Assembly: GCA_024402495.1 (NCBI GenBank)
Contig: JAKSTR010000024.1
Coordinates: 1-33,960, forward strand
Direction: 5' to 3'
Length of the DNA: 33,960 nucleotides
Source of the DNA: Treponemataceae bacterium
Lineage (GTDB): Bacteria; Spirochaetota; Spirochaetia; Treponematales; Treponemataceae
Made by a program: the position numbers and the translations under genes. Below the pieces are notes generated by a model. That model did not search any database. It was not told where the DNA came from and worked only from the letters and a program-made list of their open reading frames with translations. Shown in pieces: positions 6,232 through 33,832 of this stretch. Within the stretch, counting starts at the first letter, position 1, and the number at the start of each line of letters is the position of its first letter.

Positions 6232-6241
6232 GGGAAAAAAA

Positions 6242-8986: not shown

Positions 8987-9003
8987 TTTTTTAAGGAAAA
9001 TTG

Positions 9004-9921: not shown

Positions 9922-9936
9922 TATTCTGGAGATTTT

Positions 9937-10881: not shown

Positions 10882-10882
10882 A

Positions 10883-11767: not shown

Positions 11768-11783
11768 ACAAGGAATAATATAA

Positions 11784-12788: not shown

Positions 12789-12896
12789 TGAAATTTTAAG
12801 TTTCCGTAAAATCTTGCCGCATTTTTTTCTGCTTACTGCAATTAAAAAAATTTTTCTCTGGCAAAACTTCTTTTTTAATACAGAAAATTTATAAAA

Positions 12897-13760
12897 TCAT
12901 TCGCCAAGCACAAAATTTTCGCCAATTACCACGGCTTTAGAATCTTCTGCGTGCCCGATGTTTTGCGTTTTTGCAACCGGCAAATTGGGCGGCACCATTT
13001 GCAAGACAAGTTCTTTCAATTTTTCGCCGCCGCCAGCCTGTTCCAGCTGAGAAAAAGTGCCCAGCAAAAGCCCGCTAATCTGGTTAAAAACGCCCATCTG
13101 TTTTAATTGGGCAAAAAAAGTTGCAATACGCGGCAAAAATCCAGACAAAGACTCCAAAAGCAGCACCTTGCCGCTAAAATTCGGCAAATACTGAGTGCCG
13201 GCAAGCTTTAAAAAACAACGCACGTTGCCGCCAATTAAAACGCCTTCTAATTTATTACCCTGCCAAAAATTAGCACTAATTTCCGTTAAATTGCTGCCGC
13301 CATTTATCAAAGTCTGTTCAAAATCAAAAGCCTGCTGCTTTGAAAAATTGCCGGCAATATTTTGAATCTGATACAGAACCGAAGATTTGCCGGTTTTTGC
13401 ATAAATTGCGTTCAAAATCGTGGTCAAATCGCTGTAGCCCCAAAATTGTTTGCCGCTGCTTTTTATCACATCAAAATCAAAAAAATCCAAAACCTGATTC
13501 GCGACATCGCCGCCGGAAACATCAAAAATCGCTTTAATTTGGCTGTCTTTATAAAAATTCATCAAAACTTTTGCGCGTTCTTCGCCACTGGCAGAAAAAC
13601 CGTCGCTTTTTTCAAAAATATAATCGCTAAGAACAGGCTGCAGCGGTATCTGGCGCAAAATACCGGTCATTTTTGCAATATGCGGCGCTGAATTCTGGCG
13701 CAAACCGTTGGAACAAGCGGCAATTGCGATTTTGCTGCCCTTTTCAATCGTCTGAATCAT
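12897..13760 (-). CDS. S66 family LD-carboxypeptidase-like serine peptidase
   Basis: Family S66 (LdcA/MccF) enzymes cut an L-to-D peptide bond, in LdcA the terminal D-Ala of murein tetrapeptides during recycling in the cytoplasm. In this 287-residue protein the catalytic triad is visible: Ser110 in GYSDLT, Glu203 in LLLES and His270 in NIGHAEDS, with spacing close to that of known LdcA. IFDVSGGDVANQVLDFFDF (78-96) stands where the family has its conserved GGxxxxRLLxxLD segment. No signal peptide is seen, which fits a cytoplasmic recycling enzyme. It is the only - strand gene between two + strand GT blocks and has no partner. MccF-type detoxification of nucleotide-peptide antibiotics is the main alternative. 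Confidence 0.87.
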   Translation of the reverse strand: MIQTIEKGSKIAIAACSNGLRQNSAPHIAKMTGILRQIPLQPVLSDYIFEKSDGFSASGEERAKVLMNFYKDSQIKAIFDVSGGDVANQVLDFFDFDVIKSSGKQFWGYSDLTTILNAIYAKTGKSSVLYQIQNIAGNFSKQQAFDFEQTLINGGSNLTEISANFWQGNKLEGVLIGGNVRCFLKLAGTQYLPNFSGKVLLLESLSGFLPRIATFFAQLKQMGVFNQISGLLLGTFSQLEQAGGGEKLKELVLQMVPPNLPVAKTQNIGHAEDSKAVVIGENFVLGE

Positions 13761-13877
13761 TTTTTCCTTTCAATTTGCGCCAAAAAATTTGTATGGCGGC
13801 GCAGAAATTTTATAATTTCATTTGTACAAAAGAATTGCTTTCATTTTTATAAAAAATTTTATATAATTATTCAACCT
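13761..13877. promoter_or_regulatory. Divergent intergenic region with candidate -10 for the fucosyltransferase block
   Basis: A TATAAT at 13862-13867 lies only 10 bases before the ATG at 13878. If used, it would start transcription near 13874 and leave almost no leader. The hexamer 17 bases upstream (TTTCAT) is a poor -35, and TTGCTT at 13835 is too far away (21 bases). No Shine-Dalgarno sequence is seen before the ATG. The peptidase promoter on the other strand could not be located with confidence. Confidence 0.3.
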
Positions 13878-14750
13878 ATGAAAAAAACGCAATTTTATAA
13901 ACTTTTTGGCGGCTTGGGCAATCAGCTTTTTCAGTACGCTTACGGGCTTGGGCAAATTGAAAACGGCGAAAAGCTGCGCTTCATTTTGAACAAAGATGCG
14001 TCTACCAGAAACAGCCTCAGCATAAATGAACTTTTTGAAATTGATAACAGCCTGATAATTGCACCAAAAAGCAAAATTGGTCTTAATTTTTATAAATTTT
14101 ACGCAAAATATCTTTGCAAAACCTGGCACGCCGATTTTTTTCAGGAATACGGGTTTGCAGAAAATTTGAATAAGCTGCAAAAATCTCCAAAATTCGGGTT
14201 TAAGAAAATTGAACTTTACGAAAAAAGCCCGGAAAGTGCTTTTATAAAGGCGAAAAATGCCGTAAGCCTGCATATTCGCGGTGGAGATTATAACAGGATT
14301 GACGTTTTTAGAGATTTTGGAAATATTTGCAATCTGGAATATTACAGAAATGCGATAAAAACTGTTTGTGCCGAAATTGCAGACCCTGTTTTTATAATTT
14401 TCACAAACGATGCAAAATTTGCGCATAATTTCATTGAAGAAATAAAAAAAGACGAATATTTTCTGCAAAATTCTGTAAATTTTCTGTTTTTAAGCGAAAT
14501 TTGCGAAAGTAAAAAAGCACAGGAAATACAGAATAATTCAGCAAAAACCAAAAAAGACGACGCTTTTGAACTTTATTTGCAGAGCATTTGCAAGGCAAAC
14601 ATTATTGCAAATTCAACTTACAGCTGGTGGGGCGCATTTTTTAACCAGAATCCGGAAAAAATTGTAATTTCGCCAAAAAAATGGCACAATTCGCGGCCGC
14701 AAATGATAGACGACCTTGTTCCAAACCGCTGCAACTGGAGAAAAATCTGA
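13878..14750 (+). CDS. GT11 alpha-1,2-fucosyltransferase-type enzyme (first copy)
   Basis: Transfers a sugar, in characterised members L-fucose from GDP-fucose, to a galactose or similar acceptor. The 290 residues show the GT11 blocks in order: GGLGNQLFQYAYG (11-23), HIRGGDY (132-138, the conserved donor-binding HxRRGDY with Gly in place of the second Arg), FTNDAK (175-180) and IIANSTYSWWGAF (242-254). The length is normal. The R-to-G change at 136 is notable because the second Arg is common in the family. The stop overlaps the next start (TGATG at 14748-14752). ATG 13878 lacks a ribosome site. GDP-fucose synthesis genes are not in the window. Confidence 0.9.
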   Translation: MKKTQFYKLFGGLGNQLFQYAYGLGQIENGEKLRFILNKDASTRNSLSINELFEIDNSLIIAPKSKIGLNFYKFYAKYLCKTWHADFFQEYGFAENLNKLQKSPKFGFKKIELYEKSPESAFIKAKNAVSLHIRGGDYNRIDVFRDFGNICNLEYYRNAIKTVCAEIADPVFIIFTNDAKFAHNFIEEIKKDEYFLQNSVNFLFLSEICESKKAQEIQNNSAKTKKDDAFELYLQSICKANIIANSTYSWWGAFFNQNPEKIVISPKKWHNSRPQMIDDLVPNRCNWRKI

Positions 14751-15616
14751 TGAAAATTGTGAAAATTAAAAGCGGACTTGGAAACCAGATGTTTCAGTAT
14801 GCTTTTGCAAAAGCCTGCCAAAAACGCAGTGGCGAAACCGTGCTTTTGGATCTTTCCAATTACAAAACCGAACATTTGCACAACGGCTACGAGCTGAACC
14901 GGCTTTTTAATATCGATTTGCCCGTGGCAAGCCGCAGCGAATGCGATAAAATTGCCACAATTCCCGATAATTTTTTGCGCCGCATAAAGCGGAAATTTTT
15001 TACAAAAAAAACGCACCTGATTGAAAATGAAAATATTTTTGACAAGCGCTTTTTTAACTGCGATGGCAATTTTTATTTTGAAGGCTACTGGCAAAATGAA
15101 GATTATTTTTCGCCCATATTAATAGAAGAAATTCGTTCAATTTTTGCCTTTAAGCCCCAGCTTGATGAAAAAAATATTCAGCTTATGCAGAAACTGGACG
15201 CAAATTCTGCAAGCATTCACGTGCGGCGCGGCGATTATCTGCTGAAAGAAAACCAGAATTTGAATCTTTGTACGATTGAATATTACAAAAAAGCGCTGAA
15301 AAGCCTTTTTGAGCAAAAAAATATTTCAAATCTGCTGTTTTTTTCTGACGATATTGCGTGGTGCAAGGAAAATTTCACCAGTTTGCCGGTGCCGGTAACT
15401 TTTGTGGACTGGAATACGGGCGAAAATTCGTGGCAGGACATGGCGCTGATGGCGAAATGCGGCAGCAATATTATTGCAAACAGTTCTTTCAGCTGGTGGG
15501 GCGCGTACCTAAATCCTAACCCTAAAAAAATTGTGATTGCACCGGCGTTCTGGAACAGCAAAAATATTCAAACTGAAAAAAAATTACCCGAAAACTGGCA
15601 GGCACTTAAAATATGA
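14750..15616 (+). CDS. GT11 alpha-1,2-fucosyltransferase-type enzyme (second copy)
   Basis: A second GT11 enzyme of 288 residues, a paralogue of the preceding gene but clearly diverged. Blocks: SGLGNQMFQYAFAKA (8-22), GYWQNEDYF (112-120), SIHVRRGDY (155-163, with the full double-Arg motif), FFSDD (197-201), and NIIANSSFSWWGAYL (240-254). This copy fits the family consensus better than the first. The ATG at 14750 overlaps the upstream TGA, and an upstream in-frame start at 14681 would lie deep in the previous gene. It ends in an ATGA overlap with the next gene, so three genes are translationally chained. The linkage is assumed alpha-1,2 by family; the acceptor is unknown. Confidence 0.92.
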   Translation: MKIVKIKSGLGNQMFQYAFAKACQKRSGETVLLDLSNYKTEHLHNGYELNRLFNIDLPVASRSECDKIATIPDNFLRRIKRKFFTKKTHLIENENIFDKRFFNCDGNFYFEGYWQNEDYFSPILIEEIRSIFAFKPQLDEKNIQLMQKLDANSASIHVRRGDYLLKENQNLNLCTIEYYKKALKSLFEQKNISNLLFFSDDIAWCKENFTSLPVPVTFVDWNTGENSWQDMALMAKCGSNIIANSSFSWWGAYLNPNPKKIVIAPAFWNSKNIQTEKKLPENWQALKI

Positions 15617-16416
15617 AGCCGTTTTACGATTCTGCCAGTTTACAAAATGCAAAAATCTCGGTAATTATTCCGGCTTATAATGCGGAAAAAACTCTGGAAG
15701 CCGCCATGCAAAGCTGCATTGATCAAACTTTTCTGCCTTTTGAAGTAATCATCATAAACGACGGCTCTACAGATAAAACCGAAGAAACTGCAAATAATTT
15801 CATAAAAAAACAGCAAACGAACGTTAAGTTTTCTGTAATATCGGTAAAAAACGGCGGCGTTTCCAGGGCGCGCAATATTGGCATAAAGCAGGCTGCCGGC
15901 GATTTTGTTGCATTTTTAGACAGCGACGACGCATGGCATACTGAAAAACTTGCAAAACAAATAGAAGCTTTTAAAAATTTTCCAAATACGGCGCTGGTTT
16001 CTACAAACAGTACCGTAAAAAATCATTTTTCAGGGCAAACCAGACGCGTAAGTTTTACGCATCTGCTTATCCGCAACCACGTAATTACATCTTCTGCAAT
16101 AGTGCCGGCGACAATTATAAAAAACTGCATGTTTGACCAGACTTTGCGCCGTGCCGAAGACTATAATTTGTGGCTGAAGCTCGGCAAAATCGGCAAAATC
16201 GTTTTCATCGACCAAAAACTTGTATTTTTTGCCGACAAGCGAACTTTTGGCGTTTCGGGGCTGTCGGCAAATTTTCACGCCCTAACCGCCGACGAAATGA
16301 AAGGTCATACAAAGCTTTTTTTTGCCGGCACAATAAATTTGGGACAATATTTTTTCGCCTTAGGAATGACTTGCGTAAAGTACCTGCGTAAATGTATAAT
16401 ATATTACTTAACTTAA
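15613..16416 (+). CDS. Glycosyltransferase family 2 (EpsJ/WcaA-like)
   Basis: GT-A transferase of 267 residues. Motifs: ISVIIPAYNAEKTL (15-28), NDGSTD (49-54) for nucleotide binding, NGGVSRARNIGI (80-91), the metal-binding DSDD (103-106), and the ED pair of RAEDYNLWLKL (180-190), which usually holds the catalytic base. The C-terminus past 240 is hydrophobic and may touch the membrane. The start overlaps the stop of the second fucosyltransferase gene (ATGA), so it probably acts on the same oligosaccharide. The specific donor cannot be predicted. Confidence 0.9.
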   Translation: MKPFYDSASLQNAKISVIIPAYNAEKTLEAAMQSCIDQTFLPFEVIIINDGSTDKTEETANNFIKKQQTNVKFSVISVKNGGVSRARNIGIKQAAGDFVAFLDSDDAWHTEKLAKQIEAFKNFPNTALVSTNSTVKNHFSGQTRRVSFTHLLIRNHVITSSAIVPATIIKNCMFDQTLRRAEDYNLWLKLGKIGKIVFIDQKLVFFADKRTFGVSGLSANFHALTADEMKGHTKLFFAGTINLGQYFFALGMTCVKYLRKCIIYYLT

Positions 16417-16443
16417 GCATTTTACGGTTTTACGCGATTTTAT

Positions 16444-17574
16444 ATGACGAAAATTCTTTTTACAGCCTCCCGGCAAAGCCATTTTAACCAGTTTCATCTG
16501 CCGTATCTTGAATATTACAGCAAGAAAGGCTTTAAGGTTTTTACCGCAGCTCAAGGCGAAGCTAGCTATTCATTTGACGCAAAGCATTATAATATAGAAT
16601 TTTACAAAGGCAAACCATGGAAAAACCTGAAAACTGTTTTTGCCGTAAAAAAAATAATCAGAACAGAAAAAATTGACGTTGTTATAAGCAATGCAACTTT
16701 GGCAGGAATCATTACCCGCCTTGCGGTTCTTTTTTGCGCCAGAAAACCGGTTGTAATCCATAGCTGTCACGGTTATTTGTTCAGCAAAAATACGCCAAAA
16801 CTAAAAAAGGCCATAATGCTTTTTATTGAAAAATTTTTTGCTCCTATCACAAAACTTTGCATTACAATGAATTATGAAGATTTTGAGGCAGCAGAAAAAC
16901 ACAGGCTTGGCAAAATTGTAAAAAATGTTCCCGGCATTGGCATAAAACCTTTCAATGCAAAAAATTGTACAGCAGAAGAAATTATAAAAGCAAAAAAAGC
17001 TGTTCTTGGTAACTTTTACAGCGATTCGGATGTTCTATATTTTGTATACGCTGCCGAATTTTCCAAAAGAAAAAATCAACAACAGCTTTTTGAATATTTT
17101 CTGCCGCTTTTAAGACAAAACCCCGATTGGGTTTTAATACTTGCAGGTACTGGTTCAGAATGGCAAAATATTCAAAATCAAGTTTTGCAGGAAAATATGC
17201 AAAATCAAGTAATTTTACCGGGTTTTGTAAAAAATATCGATGAATTGCTTACTTTTTGCAATTTTGTAGTTTCTTTTAGCAAAAGCGAAGGTTTACCGTT
17301 CAATTTAATGGAAGCCATGCAGCACAAAAAACCCGTGATTGCATCCCGGGTAAAAGGTCACAGCGATTTAATTGAAGACGGTGAAAACGGCTTTTTGTTC
17401 AATTTAGGCAACTTTGATGAATTCAAAGAAAAAATTGAAAAAATTGCCCGAAATACCGGTTTGCAAAAAGATTTTGCAGAAAAAAGCAGCCAGAAAGTTG
17501 CTTTTTTTGAATTAAGCACTGTTTTTGACCAGATAATTAAGACTTATACTTTAGCCGACGGCAGACTTGAATAG
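16444..17574 (+). CDS. Glycosyltransferase family 4 (EpsD/CapM-like)
   Basis: Retaining GT-B transferase of 376 residues. The N-terminal acceptor domain starts KILFTASRQSHFNQFHLPY (3-21) and has IHSCHGYLF (105-113), typical of the EpsD-type subgroup. The C-terminal donor domain carries FVYAAEFSKRKNQ (200-212, a GxxxxxKG-type loop), LAGTGSE (233-239), and the EX7E pair E282/E290 in SEGLPFNLMEA, followed by KKPVIASRVKGHSDLI. The length is normal. It starts 27 bases behind the GT2 gene and ends three bases before the start of the WcaJ-like gene. Related enzymes add the second sugar to a lipid-linked precursor, which suits its place beside the initiating transferase. Confidence 0.9.
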   Translation: MTKILFTASRQSHFNQFHLPYLEYYSKKGFKVFTAAQGEASYSFDAKHYNIEFYKGKPWKNLKTVFAVKKIIRTEKIDVVISNATLAGIITRLAVLFCARKPVVIHSCHGYLFSKNTPKLKKAIMLFIEKFFAPITKLCITMNYEDFEAAEKHRLGKIVKNVPGIGIKPFNAKNCTAEEIIKAKKAVLGNFYSDSDVLYFVYAAEFSKRKNQQQLFEYFLPLLRQNPDWVLILAGTGSEWQNIQNQVLQENMQNQVILPGFVKNIDELLTFCNFVVSFSKSEGLPFNLMEAMQHKKPVIASRVKGHSDLIEDGENGFLFNLGNFDEFKEKIEKIARNTGLQKDFAEKSSQKVAFFELSTVFDQIIKTYTLADGRLE

Positions 17575-17577
17575 ATT

Positions 17578-18972
17578 ATGATTAACGAAAATCAGCGTAC
17601 TTTAAACCGCATTCAAATATTTTTAGACTTGTTTTGTATTCCGCTTGCTTTTTTGCTGGCGTATTTTTTCCGTTTTGAACTTTTTAACGGCACAAATAAC
17701 CTTCCTTTTGAAACGACAATTTTTTTAGTTTTCGTTTTAATGCCGGTATATTTTTTGCTGTACAGTGCTTTTGGACTTTACAGTTCGCGCCGAACCAAGC
17801 CTTTTTACGAAGAAATTGCTTCCATTATTTATGCAAACGCAATTGCAACCTTGCTGTTTGTTTTAATTCTGTATATTGGAAAAATCATGCACTTTTCGCG
17901 TTATGCGGCAGTGCTTATTGCTATTTTCAACACTTTAATTACAATTTCAAGTCGTTTAATAATTCGTTTTATACTAACAACTTACCGCAAGCGCGGCTAC
18001 AACAAACGCTTTTGTCTGGTTATTGGCACCAACAAATTAAGCCGCAAGTTTATTGAAAAAACCCGCAAGCACCCGGAATGGGCTTACGAAATCAGCGGCG
18101 TAGTTTCTGAAAACGACTATAAAAAAGGCGATTTTTGGGGTCTTTCAATTATTGGCACAGTTGACCACCTTGGAGAAATTCTGGCAAACCAATATTTCGA
18201 TATGGTAGTAATTGCCTTGGCACCGGAAAATTATATGGAAATCGATACGATTATTCCGCTTTGCGAAAAAAACGGCGCACGCATTCTGATTGTGCCTTAT
18301 TACAGCGAATATATTCCGGCAAAACCTGCATTTGAAGATTTAGACGGTTTGCCTGTTATTGATACGCGCTACATTCCACTTGATTCTTCAATTCACCAAA
18401 TGTTTAAGCGCAGTTTTGATGTTTGTTTTTCGCTTTTTGCAATAACTATATTTTCACCGGTTATGCTTTTTGCCGCAATTATGACGAAAATTACTTCTCC
18501 AGGACCGATTTTGTACAAGCAGGAAAGAATAGGCTTAAATCAGAAAAGCTTTAATATGTACAAATTCCGTTCAATGCGCGTTCAGTCGGAACAGTCCAGC
18601 AATACTACATGGACGACAAAAGATGATCCGCGCAAAACAAAATGGGGCGAATTTATGCGCAAAACCAGCATTGATGAATTGCCGCAATTTTTCAATATTT
18701 TGACGGGTTCCATGTCGGTAGTTGGTCCGCGCCCGGAACGCCCGTATTTTGTTGCCCAATTTAAAGAAACCGTACCGCGTTACATGGTTAAGCATCAGGT
18801 TAGACCGGGGTTAACAGGCTGGGCGCAAGTTAACGGCTGGCGCGGTGATACTTCAATTGAAAAACGTATTGAACACGATATTTTTTACATTGAGAACTGG
18901 TCTTTTATGTTTGATATGAAAATTATCTTTTTGACGGTTTTTAGAGGTTTTATAAACAAAAACGCATATTAA
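17578..18972 (+). CDS. Polyprenyl-phosphate sugar-1-phosphate transferase (WcaJ/WbaP/CpsE type)
   Basis: Inner-membrane enzyme that starts a repeat unit by moving hexose-1-phosphate from a UDP-sugar to undecaprenyl phosphate. The 464 residues are full length: four N-terminal membrane helices (about 14-34, 45-67, 82-102, 107-130), a Rossmann-like middle domain (140-260), one further membrane segment (280-303), and the cytosolic catalytic domain with YKQERIG (313-319), YKFRSMR (328-334), DELPQ (366-370, the catalytic Asp-Glu), VVGPRPERPYF (381-391) and RPGLTGWAQVNG (409-420). Which sugar (Glc, Gal or a modified one) is undetermined. It is the last gene of the block and gives the strongest evidence that the locus makes a lipid-linked polysaccharide. 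Confidence 0.95.
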   Translation: MINENQRTLNRIQIFLDLFCIPLAFLLAYFFRFELFNGTNNLPFETTIFLVFVLMPVYFLLYSAFGLYSSRRTKPFYEEIASIIYANAIATLLFVLILYIGKIMHFSRYAAVLIAIFNTLITISSRLIIRFILTTYRKRGYNKRFCLVIGTNKLSRKFIEKTRKHPEWAYEISGVVSENDYKKGDFWGLSIIGTVDHLGEILANQYFDMVVIALAPENYMEIDTIIPLCEKNGARILIVPYYSEYIPAKPAFEDLDGLPVIDTRYIPLDSSIHQMFKRSFDVCFSLFAITIFSPVMLFAAIMTKITSPGPILYKQERIGLNQKSFNMYKFRSMRVQSEQSSNTTWTTKDDPRKTKWGEFMRKTSIDELPQFFNILTGSMSVVGPRPERPYFVAQFKETVPRYMVKHQVRPGLTGWAQVNGWRGDTSIEKRIEHDIFYIENWSFMFDMKIIFLTVFRGFINKNAY

Positions 18973-18994: not shown

Positions 18995-19024
18995 TTGAAA
19001 TTTCTTCAAAAATGGGGGTATAAT
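18995..19024 (+). promoter_or_regulatory. Sigma-70-like promoter of the barrel protein gene
   Basis: TTGAAA (18995-19000) and a perfect TATAAT (19019-19024) are separated by 18 bases. The expected first transcribed base is near 19031, which coincides with an ATG of the downstream gene. The promoter lies in the 55-base gap behind the WcaJ-like gene and makes the barrel gene independent of the glycan operon. Confidence 0.65.
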
Positions 19025-19027
19025 AGC

Positions 19028-20710
19028 ATGATGTATTTAAACAAAAAGATTTCCTGCTTTTTATTATTCCTCATTTTTTTTAGCACAAATATAGTTTTTT
19101 CGCAAACCGCAGGCAACAGATTCCAGATTACATCGGTAAAGTATGAACTTGAAGGTCAAACCAGAGTAAGTGCATTAAAAGAAATGCTGAAAATTGACCA
19201 GGAAACGGTTTTTAAAAATCAAAAAGAATTTGACGATTATCTTGCATGGCTGCGTGCAGAATTTGACGGTTTCAGAGTTTTTTCATATACAGAAGTTCAA
19301 GTTTTTTATGGCGTGCGCAATGCACAAACCAGTATTACCCCAGTTGAACTTTTAATGAAAGCAAAAGATGGGCACGGCAACAAGATTGTTGTCCCTTTTC
19401 CTAAGTATACATCTGCCAATGGTTTGAAAATAACTTTTAAAGCCCGTAACTATAACTTTATGGGTACAATGCAGATGTTTGACCTTAACTTTGGGTATAA
19501 CTATTACACTGCTGAAAAACCGGTAATAAAACATATTATCAGTGCTGATACTGGTTTTACAGTTCCTATAAAGGCTTTTGGTCATGACATAAACTGGAAT
19601 AATGGTATAGAAGTTAGTAAAGTTTTTGTAGATAAAGACAAGGAAGCTTCGAAAGCATTCAAACCGGCTGTTTCTTATTCTACAAGTTTAGGTATTTGGT
19701 CTCAAATCGATAAGAAATCTTCCATTTATGTTTCTCCCAGTGCTTATATAAATTATACCGCAGAAGGTAATTTATATTATAATATTGGTCAGTCAACATC
19801 ATACAGCCGCCGTCTAACAGATATTGCATCATTGAATCTTAATTTCAGTGAATATTTTTACCGAAATCCAGAATACAAAGATGATGTTTATTATTTGAAT
19901 AATTCGGTAGGTGCTTCATTACCTATCACACTTGGTCGTATTCCGAACTTTAACAGTGTTACATGGACACCGTCCGTTTCTTTCGGCTGGAACTGGGATG
20001 CAGATGCACTAAAACAGAATCCGGCAGCTGCAAACAAAAGTGACATGATTGACCATAACGACTTAAAAGGTCCGGTAGTAACATTTTCACACTCTATTGG
20101 TTCTGGAAAACTTGAACGTGTAGGAAACTATCGTAAAGGCTTCTTATTTTCACTTGGACAAAGCTGGGGATATAACCTTTATACCAAGACAATCCCAATG
20201 CCAACATTTACTTTGAATACACAAATGTATCTTCCCGGTGACAGAATTGCATTATATAACCGCACATACTGGTACTATAATATGGGTGGTGGAACTAGCG
20301 TATTTGGCGGTCGTATGCGTGGTATACGCGATAATGACGCGTTTGCTTCAGATAATGCAATTGTATTCAACTTTGATGTTCCAATGCGATTGATTCAGAC
20401 CGACTGGGCTGGGTGGGGTTTCCCTGCATGGATGAGAAAAATTGATTTTGAAGTTCTTGTTTCTCCATTTGTAGATGTGGCACTTGGTCACAATATATAT
20501 ACCAACACAAACTTCTTGATAGCAGACGGTTATTATTCTGGCGGTATTGAAATTTTGGGCTACCCTACCCATATGCGTAGTGTTATTGGTCGCATTAGCG
20601 TTGGTTTGGACTTGGCTCGTACAGTTTTACCGGGAAGAGTTGTTAACAAAAGCTGGCGTCCGGATGTTTCAAAATACGAAATGTTCTTTGGACTGGGTGT
20701 TTTCTATTAG
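19028..20710 (+). CDS. Outer-membrane beta-barrel protein with POTRA-like N-terminus, function unknown
   Basis: A protein of about 560 residues. The signal peptide is NKKISCFLLFLIFFSTNIVF with cleavage near S|QTAG. Next comes a mixed helix/strand region of about 90 residues (FQITSVKYELEG ... YTEVQVFYG) that resembles a POTRA domain. From about 140 on the protein is a run of amphipathic strands rich in Tyr, Asn and Gly (KITFKARNYNFMGTMQMFDL, SYSRRLTDIASLNLNFSEYF) and ends in an aromatic residue, FFGLGVFY, as outer-membrane barrels do. MRGIRDNDAFASDNAIVFNF near 420-440 recalls Omp85/BamA-type barrels, so an Omp85-like relative is my first guess. Starts at 19028 and 19031 are both possible; an upstream TTG at 18995 is part of the promoter. 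Its position beside the glycan locus suggests a surface or export role but does not prove one. Confidence 0.65.
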   Translation: MMYLNKKISCFLLFLIFFSTNIVFSQTAGNRFQITSVKYELEGQTRVSALKEMLKIDQETVFKNQKEFDDYLAWLRAEFDGFRVFSYTEVQVFYGVRNAQTSITPVELLMKAKDGHGNKIVVPFPKYTSANGLKITFKARNYNFMGTMQMFDLNFGYNYYTAEKPVIKHIISADTGFTVPIKAFGHDINWNNGIEVSKVFVDKDKEASKAFKPAVSYSTSLGIWSQIDKKSSIYVSPSAYINYTAEGNLYYNIGQSTSYSRRLTDIASLNLNFSEYFYRNPEYKDDVYYLNNSVGASLPITLGRIPNFNSVTWTPSVSFGWNWDADALKQNPAAANKSDMIDHNDLKGPVVTFSHSIGSGKLERVGNYRKGFLFSLGQSWGYNLYTKTIPMPTFTLNTQMYLPGDRIALYNRTYWYYNMGGGTSVFGGRMRGIRDNDAFASDNAIVFNFDVPMRLIQTDWAGWGFPAWMRKIDFEVLVSPFVDVALGHNIYTNTNFLIADGYYSGGIEILGYPTHMRSVIGRISVGLDLARTVLPGRVVNKSWRPDVSKYEMFFGLGVFY

Positions 20711-22450: not shown

Positions 22451-23941
22451 TTAAAAGTTAAAATAAATAAACGGGTTATAAGTTGATTTTATACAACTAA
22501 GCACGGAAAACACAAACACAAAAGCAAACCACAAACAGACTGCAATTTGTGCCAAAATACTTAACATTTTGCAGGATTTTGCTTTTTTTTGCTGCAAATT
22601 ATTCAATAAAGCGGAATATTTGCTTTTTAATAGCGGAAAAATCGGGAAACAGGCAATAACAGAAGCAAGCAGCAAAATTCCGCCGTTCTGAAGATAATAG
22701 TTATTTGCAAATATTTCAAAAATATTTCTGCCTGCCTTAACCGGCGAAGCGCCAAATAAATATGTCCAATAATTGAAAGCAAAACCAAGCGACGGGCTTC
22801 TGAAAATTATCCAGGCGCACATTACGCAAAACAGCGTAAAAAGCCGGTAAAAAAACGCCGGCACTTTTTTGTCAATTTTATCCAAACTGAAAAATTTTTC
22901 AACGGAAAGCAGCACAAAATACAAAATGCCCCAAAACCAAAAAGTAAACGCAGCGCCGTGCCAAATGCCGGTCAGCGCCCAAACAACAAACATATTAAAA
23001 AACTGCCGCGGCATACCTTTTCTGTTGCCGCCCAACGGAATGTACACGTAATCGCGGAACCACGACGAAAGCGAAATGTGCCAGCGCCGCCAAAAATCGG
23101 TAATTGACCGCGCCATATACGGATAATTAAAGTTTTCGTTAAAATGAAAACCGAAAATCAGGCCCAGCCCAATCGCCATATCGGAATAGCCGGAAAAATC
23201 AAAATAAATCTGCAAACTGTAGGCAATTGCCCCAAGCCATGCATCCAAAGCAGAAGGAATTATACCGGCATCAAAACCGTTAAAAACCACGTCGGCAATA
23301 ACCGCCATATAATTTGCCAGAAGGCACTTTTTACCCAAACCGAACACAAAACGCACAAAACCATTGGTAACATCCTGCGAATTTTCGGTTCGGTTTTCAA
23401 TTTCATTTTCAACTGTGCTGTAACGCACAATAGGTCCGGCAATCAGCTGGGGAAAAAGTGAAATATACAGCGCCAAATTGAAAATATTTTTTTGCACGCC
23501 GCATTTCTGGTTGTAAAGGTCGATAATATAAGAAAGAATTTGAAAAGTAAAAAACGAAATACCAATTGGCAGCGCAATTGAAACGCTGTTTGTGGCAATA
23601 AAGGCAAAATGTTCCGCAATAATTTTAGAAACAAACGAAAGATATTTGAAAATAAATAAAATGCCAATATTCCAGATAATTGCCAGAATCAGCCACAATT
23701 TTTTCAATTTCTGACGGTTTTTGACGGCATTTTTATCAATTAGAATACCAAAAACGTAATTTACACAAATTGAAAAAATCATTAAAAGCACAAACAAAGG
23801 TTCGCCATAAGCATAAAATGCCAAACTGAAAATCAAAAGTACGGCATTTCTAAATTTTCTTCCCCTAAAAAACGGGTTAAAATAGCAAATTAAAATTAGC
23901 GGAAAGAAAATAAAAAGAAAAATCGATGATGAAAAAACCAT
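22451..23941 (-). CDS. MBOAT family membrane O-acyltransferase (AlgI-like)
   Basis: Polytopic inner-membrane enzyme that carries acyl, normally acetyl, groups across the membrane for transfer to a polymer. The 496 residues have about ten or more hydrophobic segments. The AlgI signatures are clear: LPIGISFFTFQILSYIID (124-141), LIAGPIVRY (166-174), FDFSGYSDMAIGLGLIFG (247-264), DFWRRWHISLSSWFRDYVYI (282-301, with conserved His288) and GIWHGAAFTFWFWG (325-338, with the invariant catalytic His328). The start has AGGAA before it. It pairs with the AlgX/AlgJ-like gene, the common two-gene acetylation unit. The terminator hairpin listed at 23959-23994 lies only 18-53 bases before the ATG. Confidence 0.95.
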   Translation of the reverse strand: MVFSSSIFLFIFFPLILICYFNPFFRGRKFRNAVLLIFSLAFYAYGEPLFVLLMIFSICVNYVFGILIDKNAVKNRQKLKKLWLILAIIWNIGILFIFKYLSFVSKIIAEHFAFIATNSVSIALPIGISFFTFQILSYIIDLYNQKCGVQKNIFNLALYISLFPQLIAGPIVRYSTVENEIENRTENSQDVTNGFVRFVFGLGKKCLLANYMAVIADVVFNGFDAGIIPSALDAWLGAIAYSLQIYFDFSGYSDMAIGLGLIFGFHFNENFNYPYMARSITDFWRRWHISLSSWFRDYVYIPLGGNRKGMPRQFFNMFVVWALTGIWHGAAFTFWFWGILYFVLLSVEKFFSLDKIDKKVPAFFYRLFTLFCVMCAWIIFRSPSLGFAFNYWTYLFGASPVKAGRNIFEIFANNYYLQNGGILLLASVIACFPIFPLLKSKYSALLNNLQQKKAKSCKMLSILAQIAVCLWFAFVFVFSVLSCIKSTYNPFIYFNF

Positions 23942-26502: not shown

Positions 26503-26925
26503 TCAGACACTAATCAAACAGAATGCCATAACAAACAACGCTACGGTTTCACACAAACCAACAACTGCGATGTACTGTGAAAAACCTTTGCCTGTTTCAG
26601 CAAAAGCATCAGAACCAGCAGCACCGGCTTTCCCCTGTGCAATTGCAGAGAATGCCATTGCAATACCAGCGAAGATACCCAAACCAAGCAAGTACCAAGA
26701 ATCTTTTGAAGAACCGCTGATAAACATCATTGCCAGATAACCGTAAATTGTCTGGGTAAGAGGAGCACCGGCGAAAACTGTCAAAATTGAAGAAGCAGGC
26801 TTGTTGTTCAAATAACAGCGCTTCCATGCACCAATTGTTGCTGAACCAGCTGTGCCAATACCAATTGCAGAACCAAGAGCAGCAATACCAAGAGCAGCAC
26901 CTGCACCTAACATACCAAAATTCAT
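26503..26925 (-). CDS. atpK: V-type ATP synthase subunit K (membrane rotor ring)
   Basis: Four-helix proteolipid of the rotor ring that carries ions through the membrane; the 140 residues form two fused hairpins (about 5-30, 48-70, 77-99, 118-139). The ion carboxylate is Glu126 in LCETVALF on helix 4. Thr57 and Gln58 (in APLTQTIYGY), Tyr61 and Gln97 (in AIAQGKAGAAG) occupy the positions of the sodium ligands described for Enterococcus hirae NtpK, with the same Gln-to-Glu distance of 29. This suggests Na+ rather than H+ coupling, but only by residue identity. The first hairpin has no acidic residue in its second helix, as expected. Last gene of the operon, 52 bases after atpI. Confidence 0.95.
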   Translation of the reverse strand: MNFGMLGAGAALGIAALGSAIGIGTAGSATIGAWKRCYLNNKPASSILTVFAGAPLTQTIYGYLAMMFISGSSKDSWYLLGLGIFAGIAMAFSAIAQGKAGAAGSDAFAETGKGFSQYIAVVGLCETVALFVMAFCLISV

Positions 26926-26977
26926 GTTAAATCTCCTATATAATAATCTCTAACAAACGAATGTTCGCCTGCTAAAA

Positions 26978-28822
26978 CTATTCCCTAAAGGGTTCGTATT
27001 TAAAGCCAGCCCAGTTCATGCCAACGTGGCTGGTAAACTCAAGTGTATTCAAACGTACGCCGTGTACAATAACAGAAAGTACGTTCAAAACCATGTTCAA
27101 GCCGTGACCAAATACCAGAAGGATAATTCCAAAGAAGATCAGGAAATTACCCAGCATTGGACCAGCCATTGTGTTTACAGTTTCTGCAATAGCAGTACCT
27201 GCCAGCGCAACTGCCCACAAGCGGATGTAAGAAACAATATCAGAGAAGAAGTTAATAACACCCAGCAAAACTGAAATGATATTTTTACAGCTTTCTACGA
27301 TACTCTTTCCGATGCTTCCTTCGTAGTTAGAAAAAATAAAGCTTAAAACAAAACCGACAGCGATTAAAACTGGTACCGGTGTAATCAGCGGGAAACGTTC
27401 AGATGATACGATAAGCATCAAAACAACGTAGAACATACCCCAGAGAATAAACAGGGAACCAAGATCTGCAAGAACTTTAAGAGATTTTTCCTTAAAGTTA
27501 CGCTTCATTGCTATAAAGTGACCAATTGAAAGTTGTGCCAGAGCAAGCAGGAAGCAGAAAATCTGCAGGTTCGTATCGCGTTCCGGGTTTGCCGGCGCAA
27601 AAACCGGTAAAGCCAAATTCTGAAGGAACGGCGGAAGCAATGTATAATCCATACCAAACCATGAACAGTTCAGTACGCCCCAAACTACTGTAGTAGTTGC
27701 CCAAACAATTAACAGAGTAATAATCGGTGCAACAGGCTGTTTAGCCTTTTTAGCCTTGAATGCGGCAAACAGACCGGCAAACAGAAGCAATAAGCCGTAA
27801 CCGGCATCACCAAAAATCATTCCAAAGAAAATTGTAAGGAACAGCAAGAACCATATACTGACATCATATTCCCAATATCCAGGGAAAGTTCCCATAAAAT
27901 CAAGAACAGGATACAAAATTTCAACAGCCTTATTATTTTTAAGCTTGGTTGGAACATTGTCTTCTTCAGTCGGGTCTTCTGCCATAAATGCCCAGGAATT
28001 AGCTTCTGCTGTCTTTTTCAGTTCAGCAAACTCTGGTTCCGGAACAAAGCCTGTAAGCCATGCAAGCGAAGAATCTGCATCCGTTCCGTCATTTTCCATG
28101 CCGGAATAAATGTCTTCAAATTCAACGTCTTTTGCCCAAAGCTTGGCATTTTCTTTTAATGTTTTAGCATAACAAATCTGGCTTACCAGTTTCTGGTTTA
28201 AGCCGGCAATCTGTTTTTCTGCTTCGGCAATTTCTGCTCTTAGCGCATCAGAAGATTTTTCCGGCAATTGAACAAGCACAGCTTCCGCCGGCATTGATTC
28301 ATATTTGCCTGTTTCGCTGCCAAAAGCAACAAAACGCTTTTTATTTTTATCTTCATTTACCAAAACAGTGCTAATTTCTTCCGGAATATCGTAATAATTT
28401 GCCGGAGGAATTTCGTACAATGTTAACGGAATGCCTTTTTCTGCCAAAAATGCAAAATCTTCCGGATTAATGTTTCCCCATTTGGCAAAACGTTCCAGAT
28501 CACGGGTATTTTTTAATACCAGTTCTTCGCATTTTTTGCGTTCTGCAACAATACCATTAACTTCTAAAGCTTTTTCTAAAGCAGCATCTTTGGTTAATTC
28601 TTCAGCTGCAATCTTTTTAGAACCTTTAGGAGCTTTAATATCGCTTAAAGTCATAAAGGCACTGTTAACAGCATTCAAATTGCCTTTTAACGTTGCCAGG
28701 TCTGCCCCGGAACCATGAACACTGTCGATGTGCATGACACCGGCCTTGCGCAAAGTTTTTAAAGCTTCTTTTCTTTCCTTGTTGAGCACAATCAAAGAGA
28801 CTTTCTTCATAGGTACAATCAT
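26978..28822 (-). CDS. atpI: V-type ATP synthase subunit I (membrane stator)
   Basis: Membrane stator subunit (homologue of the eukaryotic a subunit) that provides the ion half-channels and anchors the peripheral stalks. It has 614 residues. The first 310 form the long soluble arm, with helical stretches (RAEIAEAEKQIAGLNQKLVS), and the C-terminal half has seven or eight membrane helices starting near 320 (VSIWFLLFLTIFFGMIFGD). The conserved arginines of the half-channel are Arg534 in SYIRLWAVALA and Arg590 in VHGVRLNTLEF. The ATG at 28822 overlaps the atpD TAA by one base. It is shorter than eukaryotic a subunits and matches bacterial/archaeal I subunits in length. Confidence 0.95.
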   Translation of the reverse strand: MIVPMKKVSLIVLNKERKEALKTLRKAGVMHIDSVHGSGADLATLKGNLNAVNSAFMTLSDIKAPKGSKKIAAEELTKDAALEKALEVNGIVAERKKCEELVLKNTRDLERFAKWGNINPEDFAFLAEKGIPLTLYEIPPANYYDIPEEISTVLVNEDKNKKRFVAFGSETGKYESMPAEAVLVQLPEKSSDALRAEIAEAEKQIAGLNQKLVSQICYAKTLKENAKLWAKDVEFEDIYSGMENDGTDADSSLAWLTGFVPEPEFAELKKTAEANSWAFMAEDPTEEDNVPTKLKNNKAVEILYPVLDFMGTFPGYWEYDVSIWFLLFLTIFFGMIFGDAGYGLLLLFAGLFAAFKAKKAKQPVAPIITLLIVWATTTVVWGVLNCSWFGMDYTLLPPFLQNLALPVFAPANPERDTNLQIFCFLLALAQLSIGHFIAMKRNFKEKSLKVLADLGSLFILWGMFYVVLMLIVSSERFPLITPVPVLIAVGFVLSFIFSNYEGSIGKSIVESCKNIISVLLGVINFFSDIVSYIRLWAVALAGTAIAETVNTMAGPMLGNFLIFFGIILLVFGHGLNMVLNVLSVIVHGVRLNTLEFTSHVGMNWAGFKYEPFRE

Positions 28823-29439
28823 TATTTCGTCTCCTTTTCTTCTGCTGCACGTTCAAGGTTTTTCTTGGAAATTTTTCCGCGAACAACCGCTGCAACCTGC
28901 TGGTCGCCAAGATAAACAGTAATTTTCTTAATGTTGCTCTTTGTTTCAGGAATTTTAACCTTTTCAAAAAGGTTAACGCGCTGAGTTGTTACCCTCAGTT
29001 CCTTTGCCAAAAGTTCAACCTGCTTATCAAGCACGTCAGCTTCCAAGTCCATTGCAAGCACTTGTTCCATTTTGTCAGCTGCAAGATCAATCCACAAAGG
29101 TGTACTGTATAAGTCGTAATCGCCGCGAGCGAATTCCGCACCTTCATAGATTGGAATAATTACACCGGCAATGTTTCCGACACCTTTCTTGATGTTAGAA
29201 ACTGTAACCATGTCAGGCGTAAAAGCTTCGCGCTCACCAAAAACGGCAATCCATTTAGAAAATTCCTCTTCCAATGCCTTGCGCTTGGCTCTTACTTCCT
29301 TGGCTCTGGCGTCAATTGTACGGATTTCTGTTTGCAGCTGCTGTTTTTTGAGCAAAAGCGTCGGCAAATAGCGCTTGTACATTTTAAGCGCATCTTTCTG
29401 ACTCTTAAGCTCATTTTTTGTCAGCTTTATTGTTGCCAT
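28822..29439 (-). CDS. atpD: V-type ATP synthase subunit D (central rotor shaft)
   Basis: Central-stalk shaft that turns inside the A3B3 head. The 205 residues form N- and C-terminal coiled coils (about 5-65 and 120-160) around a globular middle, as in Ntp[18 protein letters not shown] (148-164) is the family's signature. The start is nine bases behind atpB, and the stop overlaps the atpI start. No subunit F gene, its usual partner, follows. Residues near the C-terminus ([17 protein letters not shown]) are charged and free of hydrophobic stretches. Confidence 0.94.
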
Positions 29440-29448
29440 ACAATAACC

Positions 29449-30741
29449 TTATTTTTTCCAGTACTGTTGAATCAAGTCAGACTTGATACCTGTTTCATCA
29501 CTTTCAAAACATTCCGAAAGAATTGCCCAGCCCTTATCAAGAGCAGCTTCAAGCGGAATATTTACAGACAAATCCATCATTTCGCTTTCAAACATCTTTC
29601 CGTATTTCAAAAGCTTTTCGTCCCACTGCGACATCATAAAGCCCATTGATTTTTTCTCAAGGGTATCTTTATAAGAAGAATACAAACGAATCATTGCATC
29701 CATAAGGGCGCGGTGGTCGTTGCGGGTTTTGCCGTTAACATTCTGTTTAAGGCGCGAAAGCGAACCAAACGGCTCAATGCGTCCGCCCTTCAAATAGAAC
29801 TGACCTTCCGTAATATAACCGGTGTTATCTGGAACCGGGTGAGTAACGTCATCACCAGGCATTGTAGTAACTGCAAGAATTGTTACTGAACCGGCATCAT
29901 CAAAGTCAACAGCCTTTTCGTAACGTGCAGCAAGCTGAGAATACAAATCGCCAGGATAACCGCGGTTTGAAGGAACCTGTTCCTGAGTAATCGCAATTTC
30001 CTTCATTGAGTCGGCAAAGTTCGTCATATCGGTCAAAAGAACCAGAACATCCTTGCCCTGCAATGCAAACTGTTCGGCAACAGCAAGCGACATATCAGGA
30101 ACCATCAAACATTCTACAGTCGGGTCAGCAGCAGTATGAACGAACATTACGGTGCGGCTCAAAGCACCACCCTCTTCAAGAGTATTCTTAAAGTACAAAT
30201 AGTCGTCGTACTTTAAGCCCATACCGCCAAGAACAATTACGTCAACTTCAGCCTGCATTGCAATGCGGGCAAGAAGCTGGTTATAAGGTTCACCAGAAAT
30301 AGAGAAAATAGGCAGTTTCTGAGAAACAACCAATGTATTGAACATATCAATCATTGGAATACCTGTACGAATCATGCGTTTTGCAACGATACGTTTAGAA
30401 GGGTTTACAGAAGGACCGCCGATTGCAACAAGATTTTCCTTCAGTTCCGGGCCTTTATCGCGCGGGTTGCCGGAACCGTTGAAAATGCGTCCCATAAGGT
30501 TTTCCGAAAAGCTGATCTGCATTTCGTGACCCAGAAAGCGCACCTGATCACCAGTAGAAACACCACGACCACCGGCGAAAACCTGCAAGGAAACCAAATC
30601 GCCGTTAACGCGGTTAACTTCTGCAAGTGAAGTACCAAAAGAAGTAGTAATTTCAGCAAGTTCGCCGTATTTTACGTCTTCAGCCCGAACAGTAATAACG
30701 CTTCCGTTAATAGATTCGATTTTGCTATATACCTTATTCAT
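29449..30741 (-). CDS. atpB: V-type ATP synthase subunit B (non-catalytic head subunit)
   Basis: Regulatory subunit of the hexameric A3B3 head. It has 430 residues, near the usual 430-460. The P-loop is absent as expected: [20 protein letters not shown] stands at its position. Other markers are [41 protein letters not shown] and [20 protein letters not shown], all typical of the B subunit, and [14 protein letters not shown]. It starts in a TAATG overlap with the atpA stop and is followed nine bases later by atpD. Confidence 0.95.
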
Positions 30742-32510
30742 TATTCACCGTCCTTAAAAAGCTTTGCTGCATCTTCATCAAGTTTGCCCGATTTAGAAGC
30801 ATAAACATCTTCAAGTTCTTTCTGCAGTGATTTAAATTTGTCAGACTGCCATGGTGAATAGTTCCAGTCCATGAACTTCTGTCTGAACTGGTTGAAGAAT
30901 GCACGGGCATCACCTTTGTCTTCAAGATCAAAGCTAGAACCGAGAACTTTAAGAAGGAACGAGAACACAAAAGTCTGGCGTTCAACACTTACAGCGCTGT
31001 CAACTTCATCAAATGAGTTCTGCTGGAAATATACGGCATCCAGGAATTCTGATTTCAGGTAGTAAACGAAGTCTTCAAGTGAAGTACCTTCTTCACCTAC
31101 AACTTTCATCATCTGTGCAACTTCCGTACCTTTCTTGAAGATACCGCGTGCATAGCCTACCCAGTCTTCGCGGATAACGCTTTTGTATTTTGACCAAGAT
31201 TCAAGAGGGTCAATTGCAGGGTATTTACGTGCATCAGAACGTTCGCGGCTAAGACCGTGGAAAGCACCAACAACTTTAAGTGTTGCCTGAGTAACAGGTT
31301 CTTCAAAGTTACCGCCGGCAGGCGAAACCGTACCGCCGATTGTAACAGAACCAATTTCGCCGGAAGCAAGGCGAACGATACCTGCGCGTTCGTAGAAAGC
31401 TGCGATATAAGATTCAAGATATGCAGGGAAAGCTTCTTCGCCCGGAATCTCTTCCAGACGGCCAGACATTTCGCGCAAAGCCTGTGCCCAGCGTGATGTA
31501 GAGTCTGCAAGAAGAAGAACATGAAGACCCATCTGGCGGTAATATTCTGCAAGCGTAACTGCCGTATAAACCGAAGCTTCACGGGCAGCAACCGGCATTG
31601 AAGAAGTGTTACAAATAATAACAGTACGTTCAATCAGAGAACGGCCTGTGCGCGGGTCAATCAATTCAGGGAATTCTTTAAGAATTTCTACAACTTCACC
31701 AGCGCGTTCACCGCAAGCTGCAACAATTACAATATCAACGTCTGCGTTACGGCTGGTTGTATGCTGCAAAACGGTTTTACCGGCACCAAACGGACCAGGT
31801 ACACAATAAGTACCGCCTTTTGCAACCGGGAAGAAAGTATCAACCAAACGAATCTGGCAGACCATTGTATCTTCAGGCTTTAAGCGTTCTGCATAACAGT
31901 CAACGGCGCGTTTAACAGGCCACTGGAAAGTCATTGTAACATTGTGCTTTTTGCCCTTTTCGTCAGAAAGAACAGCAACAACTTCAGTATTTGTATAGCT
32001 TCCTGCCGAAACGATTGAATCAACTTTATAAGTTCCATAAAAATTGAATGGAACCATGATTTTATGTTTAAAGTTTCCTTCCGGAACTTCACCGAGGTAA
32101 TCACCGCGTTTTACGGTGTCGCCTGCTTTTGCAATCGGAGTAAAATCCCATTTCTGAGACTTATCCAAAGCATCAAGGTAAACACCACGTTCCAGAAAGT
32201 AACCGGCCTGTTCAGCCAGCTGTGGCAGCGGGTTCTGCAAACCATCAAAAACCTGACCCAAAAGTCCCGGTCCCAAAGTTACCGAAAGCATGTTTCCGGT
32301 AAATTCAACTTCGTCACCAGTTTTAATACCTTTGGTCATTTCAAAAACCTGAAGCTGAGCTTGATTTCCGCGGATACGGATAACTTCGCTCTTCAAGCTT
32401 TTGCCGCCGACTTTTACGTAGCCTACTTCGTTCAAAGAAACATTACCTTCGAATTCAACGCTGATCATGTTTCCGTTGACGGCTGCTACTTTTCCTTTTG
32501 TATCCGTCAT
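30741..32510 (-). CDS. atpA: V-type ATP synthase subunit A (catalytic head subunit)
   Basis: Catalytic ATPase subunit of the A3B3 head, 589 residues. The P-loop GPFGAGKT is at 239-246 and the catalytic glutamate follows in GERAGEV (267-273). The non-homologous insert typical of A subunits (about 110-200) is present. After the P-loop the sequence [20 protein letters not shown] differs from the more common QLAKWxDADIVVYIGCG of archaeal A subunits, a variant I associate with spirochaete/chlamydial V-ATPases. It starts in an ATGA overlap with the DUF2764 gene (32507-32510) and ends in a TAATG overlap with atpB, so these three are translationally coupled. Confidence 0.96.
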
Positions 32511-33058
32511 TTTGATTCTCCAAGTATCTGGTCGTATATAATGCGGTATGACTGCATACCCTCACTTTCGTCAAATTTATGCATTCTTTCTGCCATCTTA
32601 AGCTTTAAGCCGTAAGCATAAACCGCGTCAAGACAAAAAATATCCAGCGGCGCAATGTCATCAAGCTTTTTAAGCCGTTCAGCATTCAAATACATTTCAG
32701 CTTCCAAAGGACTATCATAAGAGCAGGCAGTGCGTGCAATCTGCTGAATGTCTTGAGTTACGCTGGCACCTGCATTTGAAGCAATTTCTTTCTTCATTTT
32801 TGCCGCCCTGAACTGAACCAGAGCCAAGCGCAGGTCACGATCCCAGGCATACCATTTGTCCAAAAAAGCAGAACCGGTGGAACTGCTTTCTTTTGGTGCT
32901 TCAAGGGAAAGCTTTTCAGCACATTCCAATTCGTTACCGCTTAAAAAACGGTGACACAAATCAGCAAAATATTCAGTAGAAATAGGAGGTTTTACTGCAC
33001 TGTCACGCGCAAACACAATAGCCGGAAGCTGCGCAACAAAGTAATAGTAATTTCCCAC
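32507..33058 (-). CDS. DUF2764 family protein of the V-ATPase operon, candidate C/d-like subunit
   Basis: A 183-residue protein that matches the DUF2764 family by its start (GNYYYFVAQLPAIVF, 2-16) and context; members sit between atpE and atpA in spirochaetes and Chlamydiae. The rest is helical, without membrane segments (AFLDKWYAWDRDLRLALVQF, 63-82; EAEMYLNAERLKKLDDIAPL, 120-139). Subunit C/d, which couples the shaft to the K ring, opens with a similar YxY(V/A)xA(R/Q)... strand-helix pattern and is missing from this operon, so DUF2764 is a natural candidate for that role (inference). It uses GTG 33058, directly behind the atpE TAA, with a good GGAGGA ten bases upstream. Confidence 0.8.
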   Translation of the reverse strand: MGNYYYFVAQLPAIVFARDSAVKPPISTEYFADLCHRFLSGNELECAEKLSLEAPKESSSTGSAFLDKWYAWDRDLRLALVQFRAAKMKKEIASNAGASVTQDIQQIARTACSYDSPLEAEMYLNAERLKKLDDIAPLDIFCLDAVYAYGLKLKMAERMHKFDESEGMQSYRIIYDQILGESK

Positions 33059-33679
33059 TTAGTTTATTCCTCCGGCAGCATCTTTCATAATTTGCGCTGT
33101 TTTTGGATTAAGATATGCAGAAAATAAAGCTGCAACAGATTCAGCAGAAAAATCGTAATATGCAGCACCGTCTTTTGTACCGATACGGAAACCTGCATCT
33201 AAGGCAGCATCTGACTTAATTTCAAGACCCTTGTCAATTTCTGCTTTAAGTGCAGAAGCAAAATTCTTTGACAAAGCGTCCAAATCTTTTTCTGACAAAA
33301 GAACGGCAACAGATGAAGCATCTGCATTTGAAGTCCAAGCCTTAACCACATCTGGAATAAGGGTTTTCAGCATGTCGGCATCATAAGCCTTTGCTGTTTC
33401 AGCTTCTACAATGGCAGAAAGTTCAGCATTAATTCCATCACGGAAAGACAAAATACTGTTTCTTCCAGCCTGTTTAATTGCATCAATACTAGCTTTTTCA
33501 AGGCGTTCAGCTTCGGCTTTTGCCTTTTTTTCAGCCTCTTCTGCTTTGCGTTCAGCTTCACTGATAATTGCGGCAGCACGCTTTTCTGCATCAGCAATAA
33601 TTTCTGCAGCTGACGATTCTGCAGCGGCGACGCCGTTTTTCTTAATCTTATCAATCAGCTCTTGTAATTGAACGTCCAT
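33059..33679 (-). CDS. atpE: V-type ATP synthase subunit E (peripheral stalk)
   Basis: Peripheral-stalk subunit that links the head to subunit I. The 206 residues have the E-type layout: a long alanine/glutamate-rich coiled coil (about 5-75, with AEKRAAAIISEAERKAEEAE), then a globular C-terminal domain (95-200) that binds the head. ATG 33679 is preceded by GAGGGG four bases upstream; an in-frame TTG at 33691 is much weaker. In other bacteria E pairs with subunit G/H to form the stalk; no G gene is seen here, so E may act alone or with an unlinked partner. First gene of the operon, with an unusually long leader. Confidence 0.9.
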   Translation of the reverse strand: MDVQLQELIDKIKKNGVAAAESSAAEIIADAEKRAAAIISEAERKAEEAEKKAKAEAERLEKASIDAIKQAGRNSILSFRDGINAELSAIVEAETAKAYDADMLKTLIPDVVKAWTSNADASSVAVLLSEKDLDALSKNFASALKAEIDKGLEIKSDAALDAGFRIGTKDGAAYYDFSAESVAALFSAYLNPKTAQIMKDAAGGIN

Positions 33680-33832
33680 AAAACCCCTCAATATCTAAGT
33701 TTCTCAGAAACATCAAAAGCGATGATTCCAATTTATTCCGTTGGAACGACCTATGGAACATTTGCTTTGGTAAGTTTTCTTCAATTTTTTGCCAAATACA
33801 AAAGAAAAATCTTACAAACCAATATAAATAAA

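Follow-up and report, generated by a model that had tools for sequence, protein, structure and literature searches.

The window, a stretch of 33,960 nucleotides from a Treponemataceae bacterium (contig JAKSTR010000024.1), encodes a V/A-type ATPase whose rotor ring is predicted to bind Na+, and this enzyme probably couples ATP mainly to a Na+ gradient, while a second ATPase of the same genome, which contains a two-helix subunit K, would couple to H+. The supply of ATP in treponemes, including the syphilis spirochaete, is described in print as an open question (PMC7512555), and should coupling of the window-type V-ATPase to Na+ be correct, this enzyme together with Rnf or oxaloacetate decarboxylase (Oad) would constitute a Na+ circuit.

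The rotor subunit K of the window is encoded on the minus strand (26503-26925) by an open reading frame of 140 amino acids with an ATG start; frame 1 of the plus strand contains five stops across this interval, and no plus-strand open reading frame of at least 80 amino acids overlaps it. The protein scores 199.7 bits with NCBIfam model NF005174 (PRK06649.1, V-type ATP synthase subunit K; cut-off 127), and a Pfam scan places PF00137 (ATP-synt_C) in two stretches of it, which correspond to two fused hairpins. An AlphaFold2 model (pLDDT 90.1), generated from 22 K sequences that comprise the window protein and 21 of 80 loci on GTDB contigs, is of the four-helix type and, by its helix elements, places one carboxylate, Glu126, in the last helix. 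Helix 2 of this model, which represents a single subunit, is broken at residues 54-55, where a main-chain ligand is expected. Structure comparison of the predicted model with the Enterococcus hirae NtpK ring (2bl2) gave a Z score of 17.2 over 136 residues, and among the matches listed the proton-type c subunits of mammals, yeast and plants reached values up to 18.5. Thermus K chains were absent from these listed matches, to which no weight is given. Because these eukaryotic proton subunits fit the model at least as well as 2bl2, the fold is uninformative on the ion and was rejected as an ion marker.

Subunit K is the last gene of a minus-strand operon with the order E-DUF2764-A-B-D-I-K (26503-33691), in which neighboring genes overlap or lie no more than 9 bases apart, except for 52 bases between I and K. 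The operon begins with the peripheral stalk subunit E (33059-33691), which scores 223.1 bits with NF002424, just under the cut-off of 241, and is below the cut-off of PF01991. It is followed by a DUF2764 protein (32507-33058; PF10962, 51.7 bits, no NCBIfam match), by the catalytic subunit A with an intact P-loop, GPFGAGKT (30741-32510; NF003220), by subunit B, which has no P-loop (29449-30741; NF002555), and by the central stalk subunit D (28822-29439; NF002565), the last three being above the cut-offs of their NCBIfam models and also recognized by Pfam. The 614-residue subunit I (a) (26978-28822; PF01496) scores 551.2 bits with its best NCBIfam model, for which the cut-off is 799, and its Arg534 and Arg590 align with arginines of E. 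hirae NtpI. Thus the core of a V/A-type ATPase (A with its P-loop, B, D, I and K) is encoded side by side in the window. When the seven operon proteins were compared with Pfam and NCBIfam models of subunits F, C and G, no match was obtained; the operon contains DUF2764 instead, and this protein is a possible stand-in for subunit C or for another part of the stalk. The best match of subunit I is chain P of the E. hirae sodium enzyme (8wci_P; E 1.5e-29), and since the same chain is the best match of subunit I from the second operon described below, subunit I was rejected as an ion marker. A Na+ riboswitch before the operon, an idea taken from PMC9337991, was not found, and the window as a whole gave no Rfam match at the gathering threshold.

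By eye, other parts of the window contain a long run of mostly plus-strand open reading frames (2953-18972) that resemble glycosyltransferases, sugar-nucleotide enzymes and a phosphosugar transferase of the polysaccharide type, and an outer-membrane-like protein (18995-20710) after this run. Continuing past K on the minus strand, the third gene (22451-23941) appears by eye to encode an O-acyltransferase-like membrane protein, and a similar protein is encoded beside the oxaloacetate decarboxylase genes of this genome (locus L089, 6726-8192).

The original prediction had matched five residues of subunit K with the Na+ ligands of the E. hirae ring, and both the residue numbers and a phmmer alignment with NtpK (2bl2; E=0.00094, residues 2-138) agree with it. 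In this alignment, which has 43 identities over 132 aligned positions (32.6%) and is locally free of gaps, Thr57, Gln58 and Tyr61 pair with Thr64, Gln65 and Tyr68 of E. hirae, Gln97 with Gln110 and Glu126 with Glu139. The corresponding minus-strand codons, located by arithmetic from the open reading frame, are at 26743-26757 (residues 57-61, TQTIY), 26635-26637 (Gln97) and 26548-26550 (Glu126, the predicted ion-binding carboxylate). Thus, the side chains that characterize Na+ rotary ATPases (Glu, Gln, Thr or Ser, a polar side chain where E. hirae has Gln65, and Tyr) are all present in the window protein. If alignment positions were exchangeable, five matches out of five would arise by chance with a frequency of about 0.3%, a value that serves as a rough yardstick only because positions are not exchangeable. 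The alignment also bears out the replacement of Leu61, a main-chain ligand in E. hirae, by Ala54 (codon 26764-26766, at the helix break of the model), and residue 54 varies among relatives (Ala, Leu, Met, Thr or Phe in the phylum sample described below), as expected if only its main chain is used. Beside the predicted site, Gly63 of E. hirae is replaced by Leu56.

A published rule predicts the coupling ion from the residue at the Gln65 position: enzymes that use Na+ have a polar residue there, and those that use H+ have Leu, Ile or Val (Mulkidjanian 2008; PMC2359735). This position is occupied by Gln58 in the window protein, by Leu in the Thermus subunit and by Ile in the second K of the same genome, so the polar Gln58 predicts Na+ for the window enzyme. 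The 29-residue spacing between Gln97 and Glu126, which had been offered as a further resemblance to E. hirae, is indeed the same in both proteins, but it also occurs in the Thermus subunit and in the second K, where Val takes the place of Gln; it is therefore a property of the hairpin, and it was rejected as evidence for Na+. Together with the ligand set, the published rule predicts that the window K is a Na+-binding rotor subunit.

From the observed genes, residues, conservation, contrast between paralogues and gene content, we infer how Na+ might be bound, the ring assembled, the ion transported and the enzyme turned. One Na+ per K subunit would be held by Glu126 of helix 4, Gln97 of helix 3, and Thr57 and Gln58 of helix 2, with the free carbonyl of Ala54 at the helix break as a further ligand, and Tyr61 would hold Glu126. 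During rotation of the ring past the subunit I arginines, Na+ would be exchanged as in E. hirae, and ATP would be made or split. The ligand set predicts a capacity and not the physiological ion, because enzymes of the Na+ type transport H+ if no Na+ is available (PMC2359735). The conservation of the site and the gene content of these organisms also bear on the coupling ion.

Conservation within the family was analyzed with 110 loci (the best 80 of 147 loci on GTDB contigs, 29 loci from a family survey and the window's own copy), which contain 90 distinct sequences and in which some genomes may be represented in both the GTDB and the family-survey parts. All 110 loci have Gln58, Tyr61, Gln97 and Glu126, and at position 57 there is Thr in 106 of them and Ser in the other 4; Leu is present at the Leu56 position in 109 of the same loci. 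Since 57 of the 140 columns of this set are at least 98.5% conserved, the invariance of the ligand columns is in itself weak evidence and only mildly special, with a chance expectation of about 1-3%. Stronger evidence comes from a phylum sample of 50 loci from 48 genomes, which are part of the 110 genomes with a K match among 198 surveyed. Of this sample, 28 loci come from the highest-ranking part of the survey, two more are 15-kb stretches in which two of the same genomes occur again, and the remainder are from 20 genomes of 14 families, picked by hand further down the list. Among these loci, Tyr, Gln97 and Glu are each found in 50 of 50, position 57 is always Thr or Ser, and Gln58 is shared by 49, the exception being Asn in a distant spirochaete K. 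Therefore, the predicted Na+-ligand set is ordinary for the family of the window K and is common to the spirochaete relatives examined.

These patterns also bear on a different reading, in which the ring has kept its ligands and binds Na+ only weakly, so that mostly H+ is moved in vivo and both V-ATPases work on protons. Such a promiscuous ring would accord with the carriage of H+ by Na+-type enzymes when Na+ is lacking (PMC2359735), with the possibility that Leu56 in place of Gly63 and Ala54 in place of Leu61 alter affinity, and with the retention of some ligands by proton enzymes, for example the Gln, Glu and Thr of Thermus. We consider it unlikely, because the Thermus subunit has Leu and Phe at the positions of Gln58 and Tyr61, whereas the loci of the phylum sample keep the set, including these two residues, down to about 30% identity, with the single Asn as the one departure.

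The contrast with the second enzyme of the same genome supports a Na+-coupled reading of the window enzyme. The genome (2.97 Mb in 202 contigs, 97% complete) contains a second c/K gene (contig C2, 17706-18008), which a Pfam search identified and a protein search with the window K did not recover. Family scans place this gene in an operon (contig C2, 14292-22855; locus L087, 2293-10856) that encodes, in order, a G-like protein, C (AC39), I, K, F, an E-like protein, A, B and D; subunits F and C are above their cut-offs, the G-like and E-like proteins are below those of Pfam, and subunit A was assigned by its P-loop and its place in the operon. The second K is a single hairpin of the two-helix type. 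Throughout the 29 distinct sequences examined, its own included, Gln110 is replaced by Val, Thr64 by Gly, Gln65 by Ile and Tyr68 by Trp, and Glu139 is retained; these sequences derive from 30 loci, the best-scoring of the 119 genomes with a match. Every non-carboxylate ligand of Na+ is thus missing, and with Ile at the Gln65 position the same rule (PMC2359735) predicts coupling to H+. The second V/A-ATPase is therefore probably H+-coupled, a judgement drawn from its residues.

The distribution of the two K types differs within the family. The window type is present in 139 of 145 genomes, including all 106 of good quality, and the second type in 119 of the 145 and 89 of the 106. Five genomes with named loci were also searched with PF00137, and the proteins obtained were assigned to types by blastp: Treponema parvum ATCC 700773, T. 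porcinum ATCC BAA-908 and Treponema sp. RUI232 contain both, and for T. putidum OMZ 758 and T. vincentii OMZ 806 the search yielded a single c/K protein, which is of the window type. Both T. putidum and T. vincentii are oral species. These data weigh against the proposal that Na+ serves to stabilize the ring, with the window complex acting for the most part as a vestigial ATPase or a slow regulatory one and the energy work falling to the second V/A-ATPase. In its favor, the window operon lacks recognizable F, C and G subunits, for which the second operon encodes F, C (AC39) and a G-like protein next to I, B, D and an E-like one. The proposal appears very improbable, however, given that the window type occurs in every good-quality family genome and the second type does not, that the former is all that was found in T. 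putidum and T. vincentii, and that the P-loop and both subunit I arginines of the window enzyme are intact. As a separate observation, a K protein that shares 73% identity with that of treponemes is encoded on a 3.1 Mb contig titled Lachnospiraceae bacterium TWA4 (locus L012), which may reflect a transfer of the operon or a mislabelled or mixed record.

The genome was searched for Rnf and oxaloacetate decarboxylase, as had been recommended with the original prediction. The search was productive for the decarboxylase, since OadG, OadA and OadB are all encoded, and it revealed Rnf only in a divergent form. This cluster (contig C171, 3555-8313; locus L088; Pfam and NCBIfam scans) encodes C-, D- and B-like proteins that are below the NCBIfam cut-offs, with RnfD and the RnfC N-terminal domain above those of Pfam, and three open reading frames of 186, 211 and 190 amino acids at the places of Rnf A, E and G have no Pfam or NCBIfam match. 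Across the family, OadB is present in 133 of 145 genomes and a protein of the RnfD/NqrB family in all 145. A second, high-scoring PF03116 protein occurs in most relatives, and this genome and one other (G020) have only one lower-scoring match. Neither OadB nor the second K is present in 7 of the 8 genomes of one genus (g15), which do contain the window-type K and RnfD/NqrB-family proteins.

The genome also encodes a membrane pyrophosphatase, which scores 767 bits against the sodium pump of Thermotoga, about 492 against plant proton pumps and 433 against a K+-insensitive proton pump. Alignment to 4av3 and to the plant pumps places a Glu at the position of the sodium gate (Tm Glu246, counted via the chain offset), and the protein shares the GNTTAA motif, which we take to mark the K+-dependent type. 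A gate Glu at this position, rather than one turn later, indicates the Na+ type, a rule that is valid only against K+-dependent proton pumps, since K+-independent proton pyrophosphatases have their Glu at the same position (PMC9408878). Oad, the divergent Rnf and the putative Na+-type membrane pyrophosphatase are thus three candidate Na+ pumps of this organism. In addition, PF00346, which represents the large subunit of complex-I/Ech-type enzymes, was found in none of 13 family genomes, this one included, and in 3 of 8 genomes from elsewhere in the order. The candidate Na+ pumps and the absence of a complex-I/Ech-type large subunit from these 13 genomes are the reason for proposing that the window enzyme links ATP mainly to Na+. 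The original suggestion that the enzyme may move Na+ is therefore strengthened by the conserved ligands, the candidate pumps and the ligand-poor paralogue, while neither the residue spacing nor subunit I nor the fold distinguishes one ion from the other. Gene content favors the window enzyme as a Na+-driven ATP synthase and the second as an ATP-driven proton pump, and the roles may also be reversed.

If these roles are extended to other species, many treponemes might use paired V/A-ATPases of opposite ion as a transformer between Na+, ATP and H+. The recognized primary pumps would establish the Na+ gradient, the window-type enzyme would convert it to ATP, and the two-helix-K enzyme would use ATP to form an H+ gradient in cells that lack a primary proton pump of the complex-I/Ech type; T. 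putidum and T. vincentii, in which no proton enzyme was found, would use Na+ alone for rotary ATP synthesis. We put this scheme forward tentatively, as a conjecture that may well prove incorrect. The idea of a Na+ circuit is directly testable, because with only the window type found in species such as T. putidum, rotary ATP synthesis there would have to be Na+-driven.

Parts of this proposal have precedents. T. denticola and T. pallidum are listed as having a V-type and lacking an F-type ATPase (Table 1 of PMC2359735), and T. pallidum is also placed among bacteria without an F-type ATP synthase elsewhere (PMC4154653). In an article on bovine digital dermatitis (PMC5142292), Hase 2001 is the source cited for energetics based entirely on Na+ in T. 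pallidum, and an ATP synthase driven by Rnf was proposed for this species (PMC7512555), so the idea of Na+-based treponemal energetics is not new. The same ligand rule is cited for a Treponematales genome in a paper on termite ectosymbionts, in a passage that does not name the ion (PMC12483993), and the main text of PMC12174285 makes no mention of Treponema. A search of open-licence literature met no paper on two treponemal V-ATPases with opposite ligand sets, which is no proof that none exists.

Among the known systems closest to the window operon are the V-ATPases of the spirochaete, Chlamydia and Bacteroides type. The K, B and D subunits of the window are above the cut-offs of PRK06649, PRK02118 and PRK02195, which we take to be models of this type, and no clear difference from it was apparent; E and I do not reach the cut-offs of the models that fit them best. 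One published survey counts Treponema and Borrelia as bacteria with V-ATPases and discusses their A subunits together with those of Chlamydia and Bacteroides (PMC2359735).

The K subunit of the Thermus thermophilus V/A-ATPase (5gar, 6qum), an enzyme that is coupled to H+, has a homologous hairpin with Gln and Glu 29 residues apart, and it is distinguished from the window K by the Leu and Phe noted above. The E. hirae ring, in contrast, shares with the window K the four-helix architecture, the single carboxylate and the Thr, Gln, Tyr, Gln and Glu at aligned positions. The differences from E. hirae are the residues at Ala54 and Leu56, the modest overall identity, and an operon that carries DUF2764 in place of the recognized F, C and G subunits that the E. 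hirae operon presumably contains. That E. hirae has a Na+ enzyme is taken from PMC2359735 and from the names of the PDB entries, and the former lists this organism with both V- and F-type enzymes.

A precedent for two coupling ions in one cell is Pseudobutyrivibrio ruminis, which combines Na+- and H+-dependent ATP synthases with Rnf (PMC11026938). That organism uses Ech as a second pump, whereas no complex-I/Ech-type large subunit was found here and both rotary enzymes are of the V/A type. The two systems nevertheless have in common an Rnf and two ATP synthases of different ion, with the ions of the treponemal enzymes being predicted from their residues.
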